From: Limisphaerales bacterium
GTDB taxonomy: Bacteria; Verrucomicrobiota; Verrucomicrobiia; Limisphaerales; SXTU01
Assembly: GCA_009773355.1 (NCBI GenBank)
Contig: WRPG01000054.1
Coordinates: 1 to 36,005 of the forward strand
Length of the DNA: 36,005 nt
Direction: 5' to 3'
Of this stretch, positions 28,609-35,910 are shown piece after piece. The translations under genes were made by a program, and so were the position numbers. Within the stretch, counting starts at the first letter, position 1. Every line of letters starts with the position of its first letter. Under the pieces are notes generated by a model. That model was not told where the DNA came from. It made no database searches and saw only the letters and a program-made list of their open reading frames with translations.

Positions 28609-30465
28609 TTGCCTGTGACCAAAACCAAACCGTCCCGATTTCTTCACTGCGCCGCCGCGCTCGTGCTCGCGTTCGCTTCGCACACGAATGCTGGGCAGCC
28701 TGAGGCAGCCAAGCCGTCGAGCGACACGATTGACTGGAACAAGGAGCGGCAATTCTGGTCGTTCAAGCCTCCGCAGGCGCAGGCGCGTCCGCTGGTGAAG
28801 AACGCGAAGTGGGCGCGGCAGCCTGTGGATTACTTCATCCTCGCGCGGCTGGAGCTGAAGAAACTTTCGCCCTCGGCCGAGGCGGAGCGACGGACGTTGA
28901 TTCGTCGGCTCACGCTCGACTTGACCGGTCTGCCGCCGACGCCGGAGGGGGTCGCGGCGTTCGTGGCGGACAAGCGCGCGGATGCCTACGAGCAGCTCGT
29001 GGAGCGGTTGCTGGCCTCGCCGCGCTTCGGCGAGCGCATGGCGAGCGTGTGGCTGCCGCTGGCTCGTTATGCGGAAGACCAGGCACATCAGGTGGGCAAT
29101 GACTCGACGATGTTTTACGCTAACGCGTTCCTCTATCGCGAGTGGGTGATGGGTGCATTCAACCGCGACCTGCCTTACGACCAGTTCATCCGTTTCCAGC
29201 TTGCGGCGGACAAGTTCCCGGCTGCGAAGCCAGAGGACTTGGCCGCGCTCGGCTTCCTCGGACTCGGGCCGAAGTATTACAATCGCGGGCGCATCGAGGT
29301 GATGGCGGACGAGTGGGAAGACCGCGTGGACACCGTCACGCGCGCGACGCTCGGCCTCACCGTCGCGTGCGCACGCTGCCACGACCACAAGTTCGAGCCA
29401 ATCACCCAGCGCGACTACTACGCGCTGGCCGGGGTCTTCGCGAGCGTGAAGATGGTCAACAAAACGGCCGACGGCAAAACCGTCGAGGGCAAGGTGCAGG
29501 CCGACAAGATGCCCGCCGACGCGGTCCACATGGTCGAGGAGGGCACGTCGCAGAACCTGAGCATCTTCCTGCGCGGCAACCCGGAACAGCAGGGCGCGGT
29601 GGCCGAGCGCAGTTTCCTGAAAGTGCTATCCACCGGTGAGCCAAAGCCCTTCGCCGACGGCAGCGGTCGCCGCGAACTCGCCGAGGCCATCGCGAGCCGC
29701 GACAACCCGCTCACCGCTCGCGTGCTGGTGAACCGCGTCTGGGGCGTGCTCTTCAGCAAGCCGCTCGTGGCCACGCCCAGCAACTTCGGCCACTCCGGCA
29801 TGACGCCCACGCACCCGGAGCTGCTCGACGACCTCGCGGTGCGCTTCATGTCGGGCGGCTGGTCCGTGAAGTCGCTCGTGCGCGAGCTGGTGCTCTCGGC
29901 GACGTATCGCCAGACTTCGCGCGACGACGTGAAGAAGTCCGCCGCCGACGTGGCGAATGAATCGCTCTGGCACATGAACCGCCGTCGGCTCTCCATCGAG
30001 CAATGGCGCGACAGCGTGTTGGCGGTGACGGGCGAGCTGGACTTGGCCGGCGGCAAGTCGCTCGAACTCGACGACGCGAAGAACCTGCGCCGCACGGTCC
30101 ACGCGCGCGTGAGCCGGCTGAAGCTGAACGACCTGCTGATGCAGTTCGACTATCCGGACGCGAACGTCCACGCCGAGAAGCGCTCCGCCACGACCACGCC
30201 GACGCAGAAGCTTTTCATGTTGAACAGCCCCTTCATGCTGGAGCGCGCGAAGGCGCTGGCCGAGCGCGTGACGACCGACGCGAGCGAGTCCGACGCCGCC
30301 AGCATCCAGCGCGCGTATCAACTCCTCTACGGTCGCAGCCCTGAGAGCGCGGAGACTGCCGCTGCGCTGGCCTTCCTGCGCAAGCCCGCGACGGGCGAAG
30401 TCACGCGCTGGCAGCAATACGCGCAGGCGCTGCTGATGGCGAATGAGATGTTGTATGTGGACTAA
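28609..30465 (+). CDS. DUF1549/DUF1553 (PSD1-type) protein without the PSCyt1 domain
   Basis: A 618-residue exported protein. A signal-like N-terminus (FLHCAAALVLAFASHTNA) precedes DUF1549 with LIRRLTLDLTGLPPTPEGV, LLASPRFGERMASVWLPLARYAED and the heme-type motif [11 protein letters not shown], then DUF1553 with GSGRRELAEAIASRDNPLTARVLVNRVWG and the C-terminal MANEMLYVD. It lacks the N-terminal CxxCH PSCyt1 domain and the LamG module of its larger relative at 18082-22602. No suitable ATG exists: translation must start at TTG 28609 or, six bases on, GTG 28615 (GTG ACC AAA ACC). It heads a plus-strand run leading to a DUF1501 gene. Role unknown; a periplasmic location is expected. Confidence 0.92.
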   Translation: MPVTKTKPSRFLHCAAALVLAFASHTNAGQPEAAKPSSDTIDWNKERQFWSFKPPQAQARPLVKNAKWARQPVDYFILARLELKKLSPSAEAERRTLIRRLTLDLTGLPPTPEGVAAFVADKRADAYEQLVERLLASPRFGERMASVWLPLARYAEDQAHQVGNDSTMFYANAFLYREWVMGAFNRDLPYDQFIRFQLAADKFPAAKPEDLAALGFLGLGPKYYNRGRIEVMADEWEDRVDTVTRATLGLTVACARCHDHKFEPITQRDYYALAGVFASVKMVNKTADGKTVEGKVQADKMPADAVHMVEEGTSQNLSIFLRGNPEQQGAVAERSFLKVLSTGEPKPFADGSGRRELAEAIASRDNPLTARVLVNRVWGVLFSKPLVATPSNFGHSGMTPTHPELLDDLAVRFMSGGWSVKSLVRELVLSATYRQTSRDDVKKSAADVANESLWHMNRRRLSIEQWRDSVLAVTGELDLAGGKSLELDDAKNLRRTVHARVSRLKLNDLLMQFDYPDANVHAEKRSATTTPTQKLFMLNSPFMLERAKALAERVTTDASESDAASIQRAYQLLYGRSPESAETAAALAFLRKPATGEVTRWQQYAQALLMANEMLYVD

Positions 30466-31221: not shown

Positions 31222-31482
31222 ATGCTCGCCAAGTTCCTCACGTTGCTGCGCTATGTCTTCACGCACGCGGAGACGACCCGGCAAAACCAGACGGACATCC
31301 GCGAACTTCAACGTGATGTCATCCATTTAGCCGTCGAGATGGAAAAGCTCCGCAGTGAAATCCGGTTCGGGAAGGAAACCGAACGTGGTGAGCGGGAGAA
31401 GCAGATGCTGCTCTTGGAAAACGTCCTCCTGCGTTTCGAGAAACGACTGCCCGCTCCAACATCCGGCCGGGACGCCAAATGA
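31222..31482 (+). CDS. Small coiled-coil protein coupled to DUF1501
   Basis: An 86-residue protein beginning MLAKFLTLLRYVFTHAETTR, a possible amphipathic membrane-associating helix, followed by a long heptad-like helix (IRELQRDVIHLAVEMEKLRS, EKQMLLLENVLLRFEKRL). Its TGA (31480-31482) overlaps the ATG (31479) of the DUF1501 gene as ATGA, the hallmark of translational coupling. Not recognised as a named family. Together with the preceding 59-residue protein it may form a heteromeric coiled coil or a scaffold for the exported partners, but this is inference. Confidence 0.7.
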   Translation: MLAKFLTLLRYVFTHAETTRQNQTDIRELQRDVIHLAVEMEKLRSEIRFGKETERGEREKQMLLLENVLLRFEKRLPAPTSGRDAK

Positions 31483-32879
31483 ACCCCATGAACTCGTCCA
31501 TTTTCACCCGCCGCGATTTCCTTCACCGCACCGCCGCCGGTTTCGGCATGGTGGGCTTGTCGGGCCTGCTCGGCTCGCGCGCGTTCGGCGAGGGCGCGAC
31601 GCGGCAGACGCATTTCGCGCCCAAGGCCAAGCGGGTCATTTTCCTCTTCCTCAATGGCGGACCGTCGCATGTGGACACGTTCGACCCGAAGCCGGCGCTC
31701 AAGACGCACGAGGGCCAGCAGCCGTCCGGCGAGCTTTACCGGAAATACAAGGGCACCGGCTTCGTGCCGTCGCCGCTGAACTTCGCGAAGCATGGGCGCA
31801 GCGGCATCGAGGTGAGTGAGTCGTTGCCGCATCTGGCCAGCGTGATTGACGACTGCTGCGTCATCCGCTCGATGAAGACCGACGTGCCGAACCACGAGCC
31901 GGGCCTGCTGATGATGAACACCGGCAACCTCCAGCCCATCCGTCCGTCGCTCGGTTCGTGGGCGCTCTACGGGCTGGGCACGGAGAATGAGAACCTGCCC
32001 GGCTACGTCGTCCTGCGGCCTTCGCCCAAAATCGTCGTGGGCCCGGCCTTGTGGAGCAACAGCTTCCTGCCCGCCGAGTTTCAGGCGACCAGTGTGGTCA
32101 CGGAGAACATGCAGGTGGACAAGTTGGTGGCCAACATCAAGAACGCGAAGCTCTCGCCCACGGAGCAGCGCGAGCAACTCGACTTGCTCGCCACTTTGAA
32201 CAAGCTGCATCTCAAGGCGCGCGGCAACGACGGAGAACTCGACGGGCAAATCAAGGCGATGGAGACAGCCTTCGCGATGCAGAAGCGTGCGATGCAGACC
32301 TTCGACATCTCGCGCGAGCCGGCCTACGTGCGCGAGATGTATGGCGAGACGGCGTTCGCGCGCTCGTGTTTGCTGGCGCGGCGATTGGTCGAGGACGGCG
32401 TGCGCTTCGTCTCGATTTACTACACCAGCAACGGCAGCAACCAGCCGTGGGACACGCACTCGAACCACGATGACGGCCACAAGAAGCTCTGCGCCGACGC
32501 GGACAAGGCCGCCGCCGCGCTCATCCTCGACTTGAAGCGCCGGGGATTGCTCGACGACACCTTGGTTCTCTTCGGTGGCGAGTTCGGTCGCACTCCTTAC
32601 GCGCAAGTGCAGGAGAAGGCCAAGCACGGTCGCGACCATCATCACACGGCGTTCAGCTACCTGCTGGCGGGCGGCGGCGTGAAGGGCGGGATGACTTACG
32701 GCACGAGCGACGAGCTGGGCATGAACGCTCAGGACAACCCCGTCCACGTCCACGACCTGCATGCGACCATCCTGCATCTGCTCGGCCTCGACCACGAGCG
32801 GCTGACTTACCGCTACTCCGGGCGTGACTTCCGGCTGACGGATGTCTCCGGGAACGTGGTGCGGGACATCATTGCGTGA
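31479..32879 (+). CDS. DUF1501 family protein, Tat-exported
   Basis: A 466-residue DUF1501 protein, second of three in the window. Tat signal FTRRDFLHRTAAGFGMVGLS, then FAPKAKRVIFLFLNGGPSHVDTFDPKP. Family motifs: QPWDTHSNHDDGH, LVLFGGEFGRTPY, GRDHHHTAFSYLLAGGGVKG and [14 protein letters not shown]. It is closely similar in its ends to the protein at 16668-18092 and is partnered with the PSD1-type protein at 28609-30465 through three small genes. The start at 31479 overlaps the preceding stop; ATG 31488 is an alternative. Exported and folded before export, hence probably cofactor- or metal-containing; the reaction is unknown. Confidence 0.95.
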   Translation: MNPMNSSIFTRRDFLHRTAAGFGMVGLSGLLGSRAFGEGATRQTHFAPKAKRVIFLFLNGGPSHVDTFDPKPALKTHEGQQPSGELYRKYKGTGFVPSPLNFAKHGRSGIEVSESLPHLASVIDDCCVIRSMKTDVPNHEPGLLMMNTGNLQPIRPSLGSWALYGLGTENENLPGYVVLRPSPKIVVGPALWSNSFLPAEFQATSVVTENMQVDKLVANIKNAKLSPTEQREQLDLLATLNKLHLKARGNDGELDGQIKAMETAFAMQKRAMQTFDISREPAYVREMYGETAFARSCLLARRLVEDGVRFVSIYYTSNGSNQPWDTHSNHDDGHKKLCADADKAAAALILDLKRRGLLDDTLVLFGGEFGRTPYAQVQEKAKHGRDHHHTAFSYLLAGGGVKGGMTYGTSDELGMNAQDNPVHVHDLHATILHLLGLDHERLTYRYSGRDFRLTDVSGNVVRDIIA

Positions 32880-32909: not shown

Positions 32910-34466
32910 TCACCCCTCCTTCCGGTAACTCGCCACCACCCATTCGCTCAGCACTTGCTCCGGCGCGGCCACGGCATCGGCGTCGAGGGTGAATTCCTTC
33001 CGGCCGGTGTTGCCGGCGATGAGCTTCAGGCCGAACTGGAAGTCCTTGAACTTCTGCCCGCAGAGGTCGCGCACGGAGAGCTGCTTCTCCAGCGCCTCGG
33101 CGATGAGTGCGTCCGCCGCCGTGTCGGTGAAGCGCAGGGCGAGGAAGTGCTCCTTGGCGAAGCGCTCCCCGTAGTCGTGGACGAGCTGCCGCATGACGAC
33201 GCGTTCCTCATTCGCGTGCTCGGCGAGGAGCTGCCTCAGCGCGGCGGCGGGACGGTCCACCAACTCACGAGTCACGACGAAGCGTTTCACGTGCGTGCTG
33301 GGCAGCTCGAACTTGAAATCCCGCAGCGCTCGCTCACTCACCGTCATCAGGCCGCGCGCGCCGGTCTTCTCCTCGCCCGCGCGTTCGGCGATGCGCCGCA
33401 GGCCATCATCGTGGAAGAGCACCTCGATGCCGTAGGCGGCGAAGTCCTGCTCGTATTGGCGGATGATGCTGCCCTCGCTGGTCTTGAGGATGTGGAAGAG
33501 GTCGTCCACCGCGAGCGGCTGGCACACAACGCGCACGGGGAGGCGGCCAATGAACTCCGGCTCGAAACCGAAGTCAATGAAGTCGCGCGTCTGCGTGTCG
33601 CCCAGCACGCTCACGGCGTCGGCAGCGGAGTGGGGCTTGGCGGCGAAGCCGATGGTCGCCTCGCGCAGGCGCTTGCGGACGATCTTGTCCAGCCCGTCGA
33701 ACGCGCCACTGACGACGAAGAGGATGTGCTTGGTGTTGATGGTGGCGGGGCCTTTCTTGCCGCCGCGCTGCGCCTCCATCATCGCCTGAATCTGCGCCGC
33801 CATGTCCTGCGGCGAACGCGCGGGCACCTCGGTTTCCTCCATCAATTTGAGCAAGTTCGTCTGCACGCCGCGCCCGCTCACGTCGCGCCCGGACGAGTTC
33901 GGCGCGCTGGCGAGTTTGTCAATCTCGTCAATGTAGATGATGCCGTGCTGGGCGCGGGCGATGTCGCCGTCCGCGCGGCGGACCAGCTCGCGCACGATGT
34001 CCTCCACGTCGCCGCCCACGTAGCCGGTCTCGCTGAACTTGGTCGCGTCGGCCTTCACGAAGGGCACGCCAATGAGGTCCGCCATGCTGCGGACGAGGTA
34101 GGTTTTCCCGACGCCGGTGGGTCCGAGCAGGATGATGTTCTGCTTGGTGTAGTTGGGCATCGCCTTGCCCGCGAGCGCGGCCTGGACGGCGTGGTAGTGG
34201 TCGCACAGGGCGACGCTGAGAACCTTCTTCGCCTCGTCCTGCTGGATGACAAAGCGGTCGAGGTGCGCCTTGACATCGCGCGGCTTGCGCTGGAACTGGA
34301 ACGCGGCGTCGGCCGCGTCGCCGGAAGTGGGTTCCACACTGCGATCAAAGTTCGACTGAGCGTCGCCCGTGGCGGGGGGCGGCACCTGAAGATGTCGCAT
34401 CAAGTCGTTGAGCCGCCGCTGGAATTCCTCGGGCGTGGGCTGGCTGCTGGCAAAGGCATCGCGCAT
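32910..34466 (-). CDS. ClpX-like AAA+ unfoldase lacking the zinc-binding domain
   Basis: A 518-residue AAA+ ATPase of the ClpX branch. Walker A GPTGVGKT (115-122), pore loop GYVG (148-151), Walker B IIYIDE (176-181), IGF loop (272-274), arginine finger in EFIGRLP (Arg308) and sensor 2 GARGL (369-373) are all present. The IGF tripeptide is the ClpP-docking motif of ClpX, so partnership with ClpP is likely. It differs from canonical ClpX in two ways: the N-terminal four-cysteine zinc domain that recruits adaptors is missing, replaced by about 60 residues without a Cys cluster, and the C-terminus extends about 115 residues beyond the usual end (from about 400). It is encoded divergently from a DUF1501 gene and has no clpP neighbour here, so it is probably a paralogue of the housekeeping ClpX. 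Confidence 0.92.
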   Translation of the reverse strand: MRDAFASSQPTPEEFQRRLNDLMRHLQVPPPATGDAQSNFDRSVEPTSGDAADAAFQFQRKPRDVKAHLDRFVIQQDEAKKVLSVALCDHYHAVQAALAGKAMPNYTKQNIILLGPTGVGKTYLVRSMADLIGVPFVKADATKFSETGYVGGDVEDIVRELVRRADGDIARAQHGIIYIDEIDKLASAPNSSGRDVSGRGVQTNLLKLMEETEVPARSPQDMAAQIQAMMEAQRGGKKGPATINTKHILFVVSGAFDGLDKIVRKRLREATIGFAAKPHSAADAVSVLGDTQTRDFIDFGFEPEFIGRLPVRVVCQPLAVDDLFHILKTSEGSIIRQYEQDFAAYGIEVLFHDDGLRRIAERAGEEKTGARGLMTVSERALRDFKFELPSTHVKRFVVTRELVDRPAAALRQLLAEHANEERVVMRQLVHDYGERFAKEHFLALRFTDTAADALIAEALEKQLSVRDLCGQKFKDFQFGLKLIAGNTGRKEFTLDADAVAAPEQVLSEWVVASYRKEG

Positions 34467-34575
34467 GGCGGCGATACGGTGGCACTGAGGGGCGGCTTTG
34501 CAAGCTGTAGGCGGCGGCGTGGTTGTGAATTTACCCCCCGTTGCCGCCCGTCCATCTCAGCGACGTTTTCATCAC

Positions 34576-35910
34576 ATGAGCCAGCCTCGATACAACTGCA
34601 ACGGCATCGGTCGCCGCGATTTCCTCCAGCTCGGACTGGGCGTGACGGCGGGGCTGGGCTTCACCGATCTGCTCCGCCTGCGCGCCAACGCGTCCGAGGC
34701 GGCGAAGTCCTCCGGCAAGCGCGTCAACGTCATCATGATCTGGCAGGACGGCGGGCCAAGCCATTACGAGAGCTTCGACCCGAAGCCGGACGCGCCGTCG
34801 GAGATTCGCGGGCAGTTCAAATCCATCACGACAAAGGTGCCGGGCATCCACTTCTCCGAGTGCGTGCCCGAGCTGGCGAAGGTCAACGACAAGTTCACCG
34901 TCCTGCGCTCGCTGGCGCACAAGGATCCCAATCACGGCGGCGGCAACCACTATCTGATGACCGGCGCGCCGACGCCGGTGCCCGTGGGCTGCGGCGCGTT
35001 CGTCACGTTCCATCCCTCCTTCGGCTCGGTGGTCTCCTACAAGCGCGGCGTGCAGAACGGCATCCCGCCCTACATGACCATGCCGAGCATGTCGCGCTCC
35101 GGCGGACCGAACTTCCTCGGGGCCGAGCACGCGCCCTTCGTCGTGGGCGGCTCGCCGCAGACGGCGGGCTTCAAGGTGCGCGACGTGGTGCTGCCGCCCG
35201 AAGTCAGCGAAGGCCGGGGCGTTTCACGTCAGGACTTGCGCAAGTCGCTCGACCGGCTTGCGCGCATCACGGACGCGGCGGCGGAAGACCCGACCGTCGG
35301 TTTCGACAAGTTTTACGAGCAGGGCGTGGACCTCATCACCAGCCCGCAGGCGCAGGCGGCCTTCGACATCGGCAAGGAGCCGGAGAAAACCCGCGAGCTG
35401 TATGGCATGAACGACTTCGGCCAGCGCTGCCTGCTCGCGCGCCGGCTCGTCGAGGCAGGCGTGTCGTGGGTGACGGTCTACAGCGGCGGCTGGGATCATC
35501 ACACGAAGATTTTCGAGACGCTCAAGGGCCAGCAGGGCGTGAACTTCGACAAGGGCGTGGCCGCGCTGATCGCCGACCTTGATCGGCGCGGTTCCTTGGA
35601 GAACACGCTCGTGCTTGCGCTGGGCGAGTTTGGCCGGACGCCGAAGGTGAACAAGGACTCCGGCCGCGATCACTGGCCGTTCGCCATGAGCGTGCTGTGC
35701 GCGGGCGCGGGCGTGCCGCGTGGCACGGTCATCGGCGCGACCGACCCGAAGGGCTACTACGCCGCCGACAACGTGTATGCGCCCGAGGACTTCGCCACCA
35801 CGCTCTACACGAAGCTGGGCATTGACCCGCATCAGGTGCTCCACACCAACACGGGCCGCCCGGCCCAGTTGGTGAACGGCGGCCGCCCGATCAAGGAACT
35901 GTTCGCCTAA
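34576..35910 (+). CDS. DUF1501 family protein, Tat-exported, divergent type
   Basis: A 444-residue DUF1501 protein. Tat signal GIGRRDFLQLGLGVTAGLGF (residues 11-30), then KRVNVIMIWQDGGPSHYESFDPKP. Family motifs: GGWDHHTKIFE, LVLALGEFGRTPKV, GRDHWPFAMSVLCAGAGV and, at the end, NGGRPIKELFA. It differs from the other two DUF1501 proteins in the window at its C-terminus (no [13 protein letters not shown] end) and in its middle region, so it belongs to another subgroup of the family. It has no PSD1-type partner directly adjacent in the window. The start is ATG 34576, with the RR motif about 12 residues in. Confidence 0.95.
   Translation: MSQPRYNCNGIGRRDFLQLGLGVTAGLGFTDLLRLRANASEAAKSSGKRVNVIMIWQDGGPSHYESFDPKPDAPSEIRGQFKSITTKVPGIHFSECVPELAKVNDKFTVLRSLAHKDPNHGGGNHYLMTGAPTPVPVGCGAFVTFHPSFGSVVSYKRGVQNGIPPYMTMPSMSRSGGPNFLGAEHAPFVVGGSPQTAGFKVRDVVLPPEVSEGRGVSRQDLRKSLDRLARITDAAAEDPTVGFDKFYEQGVDLITSPQAQAAFDIGKEPEKTRELYGMNDFGQRCLLARRLVEAGVSWVTVYSGGWDHHTKIFETLKGQQGVNFDKGVAALIADLDRRGSLENTLVLALGEFGRTPKVNKDSGRDHWPFAMSVLCAGAGVPRGTVIGATDPKGYYAADNVYAPEDFATTLYTKLGIDPHQVLHTNTGRPAQLVNGGRPIKELFA

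Follow-up and report, generated by a model that had tools for sequence, protein, structure and literature searches.

A ClpX-related AAA+ unfoldase of Verrucomicrobiota and Poribacteria with a second, degenerate small domain

Domain organization and genomic context of the window gene

We analysed a stretch of 36,005 nucleotides from a Limisphaerales bacterium (the window), which contains on its minus strand a gene for an AAA+ protein related to ClpX, hereafter referred to as the paralog. The gene and the parts of its product were assigned as follows.

32910..34466, minus strand: gene of the ClpX-sister AAA+ unfoldase, with an ATG start, 518 codons and a stop codon (ORF, Pfam, NCBIfam and structure matches)
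34389..34433, minus strand: predicted N-terminal helix (PxPEExQxxLxEF-like), residues 12-26, at the place of the zinc domain (model and motif in the aligned rows)
33522..34295, minus strand: AAA+ large domain, residues 58-315 (Pfam, structure matches and motifs)
34101..34124, minus strand: Walker A GPTGVGKT, residues 115-122 (alignment)
34014..34025, minus strand: pore-1 loop GYVG, residues 148-151 (invariant in 57 rows)
33735..33827, minus strand: longer Met-rich segment, residues 214-244, at the place of the RKH loop (alignment and model)
33645..33653, minus strand: IGF tripeptide, residues 272-274, corresponding to the ClpP-docking loop of ClpX (alignment)
33255..33521, minus strand: AAA+ small domain (copy 1), residues 316-404, with sensor-2 Arg371 (Pfam, model and profiles)
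32913..33254, minus strand: C-terminal extension, residues 405-518, degenerate small-domain copy 2 with the sensor-2 motif lost (profiles and models)

The first-pass annotation of this DNA had described a ClpX-like unfoldase that retains the AAA+ motifs and the IGF loop, lacks the zinc domain and has gained about 115 C-terminal residues, and each of these points was borne out. The motor motifs were all there (Walker A and B, sensor 1, Arg finger, sensor 2, and the pore-1 GYVG and pore-2 loops), as was the IGF tripeptide. Pfam searches matched the protein to 11 families, with AAA_2 and ClpB_D2-small above their cut-offs and without the ClpX zinc finger (PF06689). E. coli ClpX structures aligned to residues 61-407 (E 1e-72) with ~42% identity over the core, and the predicted fold could be superimposed on ClpX 4i63_E with a Z of 34.8 and an rmsd of 2.2 over 315. 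The homology ended near residue 407, leaving ~110 residues at the C-terminus, and a Pfam search of this extension and of the N-terminus returned no family. The full-length predicted model had a mean pLDDT of 79.2, and the linker formed by residues 27-57 was mostly of low confidence. Comparison with five close relatives indicated purifying selection, the dN/dS being 0.03-0.08 for the core and 0.07-0.21 for the extension. The match to ClpX, the end-to-end relatives described below and these dN/dS values go well past what chance would give.

The host genome (6.16 Mb, 162 contigs) encodes one other ClpX, on contig C54, which carries the only zf-C4_ClpX domain of the genome and whose gene lies directly after the only ClpP match. 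Since this canonical clpX with a zinc domain adjoins clpP, the window gene does not represent the housekeeping copy, in agreement with the earlier reading of a protein distinct from it. The refuting condition named in the first-pass annotation, a genome devoid of any further clpX, therefore does not hold. The window gene had no operon partner of its own, and a search for its promoters and terminators found none. Its neighbours at 28609-30465, 31479-32879 and 34498-35910 lie on the opposite strand and are genes of the PSCyt2/PSD1 (DUF1549/DUF1553) and DUF1501 types.

A comparison of neighbourhoods across lineages revealed lineage-specific neighbours only, with no conserved neighbour that ties the paralog to ClpP or to a substrate. 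In the Poribacteria loci, a methionine-synthase-like gene (name read from sequence) was among the two upstream neighbours in 19 of 29, and a conserved gene of ~250 aa was next downstream in 26 of 29. Twelve Verrucomicrobiota loci had a zinc-ribbon Ser/Thr-kinase-like gene nearby, likewise named from its sequence. In 11 of the 12 (L029, L046, L047, L055 and others) it is the immediate upstream neighbour and has the same orientation as the paralog. Its product is a protein of ~800 aa with the ribbon at the N-terminus.

The N-terminus and the pore entrance

For the family alignment, two of the 80 retained loci (L030 and L031, with split frames) were dropped, and the remaining 78 together with the window gave 79 rows. 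Alignment A1 comprised 57 of these rows, and alignment A2 comprised 56 of those 57. The predicted N-terminal helix and the mostly disordered linker stood at the position of the zinc domain in the model, and the helix motif was recognisable in most long rows. The RKH motif was present in 23/23 ClpX rows and in none of the paralogs, neither in the 27 rows of the tree described below nor in the 79 family rows. In the paralogs its place was filled by the longer Met-rich segment, which has a predicted helix at residues 222-233 and two residues, D221 and Q225, that are invariant in the 57 aligned rows.

The RKH loop matters in the recognition of ssrA-tagged substrates, as stated in the accessible part of a study of Myxococcus xanthus (PMC11423568). 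This role, together with the absence of the loop, provides the best support for different substrates, a point that the first-pass annotation had not raised. A specialised unfoldase with different substrates had been proposed in the first-pass annotation; the specialised paralog stood, and the different substrates are plausible from the missing RKH motif. As a separate observation, the canonical ClpX of Poribacteria (L163-L171) had two tandem zf-C4_ClpX domains in one frame in six of nine genomes, and in one of these six the second finger fell under the curated cut-off.

The C-terminal extension as a degenerate second small domain

In the full model, the order of helices and strands in residues 405-518 was similar to that in the preceding small domain. 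An hhalign comparison of residues 316-408 with residues 409-518 gave a probability of 98.3 and an E of 1.2e-14 over 73 columns, the controls (column-shuffled profiles, ten in all, a reversed one, and those of the large domain and the N-terminus) reaching 0.016 or worse. The extension matched the paralog's own small domain at 9.7e-13 (27 rows) and the ClpX small domain at 1.4e-6 (23 rows).

A model of the extension alone had a pLDDT of 89.8. In a Foldseek search with this model, all 50 of the matches listed were ClpX or ClpXP entries, with a best E of 0.09, and none of the 374 matches reached E <=0.001. VIA-align returned ClpX, HslU and Skd3 entries among the 50 matches listed; the best match had a Z of 7.9, below the value of 8 under which unrelated folds can also score, with an rmsd of 2.6 over 84, and many rows had an rmsd >4. 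Because the Foldseek E was weak and the VIA-align Z stayed below 8, the duplication rests mainly on the sequence profiles, with the structures in agreement. The alignment further showed that the sensor-2 TGARG motif was lost in the second copy. The profiles indicate that the AAA+ small domain has been duplicated in tandem and that the extension is its degenerate second copy, a duplication that is newly recognised here.

Structure prediction of both ends, proposed in the first-pass annotation, gave a helix and a linker at the N-terminus and a resemblance to the small domain, with weak structural scores, for residues 405-518. The earlier picture of swapped ends was incomplete, since the paralogs form an old sister clade of ClpX and the extension is a copy of the protein's own small domain.

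Phylogenetic position

We built a tree of AAA+ cores with E. coli HslU, on a very long branch, as the root. The paralog rows consisted of the window protein, 22 of the 56 A1 relatives and 4 other paralogs, and the ClpX rows were drawn from Pseudomonadota, Bacillota, Actinomycetota, Verrucomicrobiota and Poribacteria; L117 and L169-L171 were omitted as ClpX-side repeats. The 27 paralog rows (25 long and 2 short) formed one clade with support of 99/98 and the 23 ClpX rows formed the other with 100/99, separated by a long branch. This phylogeny against canonical ClpX, an early suggestion, places the paralogs by their core sequences as an old sister group of the 23 sampled ClpX, a position indicating that the paralog is not a recent duplicate of the local ClpX. 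ClpX was the top NCBIfam family for the window protein, which scored under both ClpX equivalog cut-offs (351.2 versus 359 and 316.4 versus 370.75).

Distribution of the paralog

Scanning the species genome collection yielded 180 relatives, and we retained the best 80 of these. These 80 were 50-96% identical to the window protein, most of them aligned nearly end to end, and came by record title from Verrucomicrobiota and Poribacteria with three exceptions (two Proteobacteria-labelled records and one Omnitrophota-labelled record, 68-88% identical to the window protein). In a profile search of 288 Verrucomicrobiota genomes, whose matches fell into two classes, the long paralog was found in 81 genomes (76 full-length and 5 partial, mostly at contig ends), and 78 of these 81 had a further above-threshold match, taken as ClpX. 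The paralog was also found in 57 of the 58 Poribacteria genomes searched, with one copy split across two contigs, and in 7 of 11 genomes of the window's own genus. These observations establish the distribution of the paralog along with its architecture, and its occurrence is patchy even inside the genus.

Plasmid matches (89 records, 25 among the matches listed) and phage matches (200 records, 15 among the matches listed) had <60% identity, and some plasmid matches extended beyond residue 410, to 484 at most. Two of these longer matches were examined as long paralogs and rejected, since the tail crosses stop codons and the gene encodes a canonical ClpX that has both the zinc domain and RKH. 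At the sensitivity used, the paralog was not found in the plasmid or phage collections, and IMG/VR searches with the extension and the full profile (one and two search patterns only) confirmed none.

The link to ClpP, short forms and reduced genomes

The tripeptide [IVLM]GF was found in 79/79 rows of a first set and in 55/55 long rows of a second, overlapping set, the two together amounting to 124 distinct cores with the short forms included. The residues that flank it varied among members. ClpP was present in all 36 further paralog-bearing genomes examined, and ClpP-family matches were found in all 11 genomes of an earlier set, which comprised 10 carriers and G257 with ClpX only. In one genome of this set (G093) these matches were weak throughout, and neither a full-length ClpP nor a zinc-domain ClpX was present, which probably reflects a gap in the assembly.

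Four short paralogs (L152, L153, L180 and L181, in genomes G023, G164, G016 and G013) kept the motor motifs and were without the IGF loop, the extension and the N-terminal helix, all together. In a tree from which nine near-repeat rows had been dropped, they formed one clade, whose best position was inside the subgroup of the window protein (98/99). The arrangement with the long forms as a clade and the short forms outside it had a p of 0.298 in the AU test and appeared in 0% of 200 bootstrap trees. Since the AU test did not reject this outside placement, loss of the extension by the short forms is the favoured explanation, though not the sole one; the single short clade indicates that the IGF loop and the extension were lost jointly in one event. 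In G023 and G164, the short paralog occurs beside a long copy. The short forms are a derivative clade, possibly uncoupled from ClpP.

Two genomes, G075 and G096, are complete single contigs of 0.92 Mb each. Both carry the paralog (loci L149 and L150), with VGF as the docking tripeptide, and one full-length ClpP, and a zinc-domain ClpX was not found in them. Their only ClpB_D2-small proteins were the paralog and two ClpB/ClpC-sized proteins, and the paralog was the sole ClpX-like match in the stretches around clpP. In both, clpP lies ~10 kb from the paralog and is not adjacent to a clpX. Both genomes retain ClpB-like and ClpC-like proteins (class assigned from sequence), and with a ClpC-like protein present the ClpP there does not depend on the paralog. 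That the paralog was kept and ClpX apparently lost suggests, from gene content, that the paralog can perform some essential share of what ClpX does.

Interpretation

We consider it probable that the paralog belongs to the ClpX/HslU group as a second single-ring unfoldase coupled to ClpP, with substrates of its own. The intact motor motifs, the conserved [IVLM]GF, its joint absence with the extension and N-terminal helix in the short forms, the presence of ClpP in the carriers and the gene content of G075 and G096 speak for this reading. The ClpC-like protein and the VGF variant of G075 and G096, the single event behind the joint loss, the patchy occurrence and the lineage-specific neighbourhoods weigh against it. 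It would assemble as a hexamer, dock ClpP by its IGF loops and pull substrates through the GYVG pore. Its substrate choice would be unlike that of ClpX because, in place of the zinc domain and the RKH loop, it has an N-terminal helix attached by a flexible linker and a Met-rich segment at the pore entrance. Lacking sensor 2, the second small domain probably has no part in ATP hydrolysis. It may serve as a peripheral module, either bracing the ring or presenting a docking face for adaptors or substrates.

A broader proposal, which we put forward only tentatively, is that the single-ring ClpP/HslV-type unfoldases include, next to ClpX and HslU, a third class represented by the paralog, with tandem small domains as its defining trait. 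The ring would then gain an extra layer from the second small domain, which would recruit dedicated adaptors or, as a substitute for the zinc domain, stabilise the ring. Such an enzyme would be able to take over the role of ClpX, as in the two reduced genomes.

It is rather unlikely that the paralog is a ClpP-independent remodelling chaperone in which the IGF loop was kept merely by descent. The short forms keep their motor motifs without the IGF loop and the extension, and a ClpP-free mode may be viable in the clade. However, [IVLM]GF is aligned in all long members despite their varied flanks, and the long branch from the clade to ClpX makes passive retention unlikely. We regard it as very improbable that the paralog is simply the housekeeping ClpX ortholog, its ends having degenerated. 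The core identity to E. coli ClpX and the status of the paralog as the sole ClpX-type protein found in G075 and G096 are in favour of this, but the canonical clpX in the same genome, the further match in 78 of the 81 Verrucomicrobiota carriers, the separate clade and the scores below both NCBIfam ClpX cut-offs oppose it, and outside G075 and G096 it is already contradicted. An HslU-type motor that partners HslV is scarcely credible: HslU is the third best NCBIfam family, the sensor-1 segment SGAF resembles what we take to be the HslU segment and the host genome has one PF00227 protein, but the HslU score of 209.2 is far from the cut-off of 362.45, the core as read from its sequence has no insertion of the size of the I domain that HslU has, an IGF-type loop is to our knowledge not an HslU feature, and PF00227 (HslV-type) peptidases, found in five of eight genomes examined, were absent from the other three (G075, G096 and G164), which all carry the paralog.

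With its duplicated small domain and different pore entrance, the paralog is naturally suited to show which parts of a ClpX-type motor determine the choice of substrates.

Comparison with known systems

The paralog family was not described in the literature on ClpX paralogs or extra small domains, which was covered at the level of abstracts with few subscription papers, and searches of the literature on M. xanthus and Xiphinematobacter gave nothing beyond PMC11423568. Canonical ClpX (TIGR00382, PRK05342) and the paralog have in common the large and small domains, Walker A/B, GYVG, pore-2, the Arg finger, sensor 2 and an IGF-type loop. Unlike canonical ClpX, the paralog has no zinc domain and no RKH loop, has a duplicated small domain, belongs to the sister clade and falls below the NCBIfam cut-offs. 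HslU and the paralog both belong to the single-ring AAA+ subgroup, whereas the paralog is far under the HslU cut-off, has no I-domain-sized insertion and is found in genomes without a PF00227 peptidase.

Like the paralog, ClpI of Actinomycetota is an additional Clp unfoldase class with a distinct phylogenetic position, and some of its subclasses have a ClpP-docking motif whereas others do not, as described in the accessible part of PMC10149685. According to the same source, however, ClpI is of the double-ring ClpB/ClpC type and comes from another phylum.

The closest counterpart by description is ClpX3 of M. xanthus (MXAN_2743). In the accessible part of the report (PMC11423568), it is a protein without an N-terminal domain or RKH motif and with 43.54% identity to E. 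coli ClpX, probably horizontally acquired, whose gene is isolated from the canonical tig-clpP-clpX operon located elsewhere, and its deletion mutant grew poorly at 36 C. The lack of an N-terminal domain and of RKH and the isolated gene are shared with the paralog, a likeness drawn from the description alone, and judged from that published description ClpX3 is likely a relative of the paralog clade. If ClpX3 belongs to this clade, the architecture described here would provide a structural frame for its heat phenotype.
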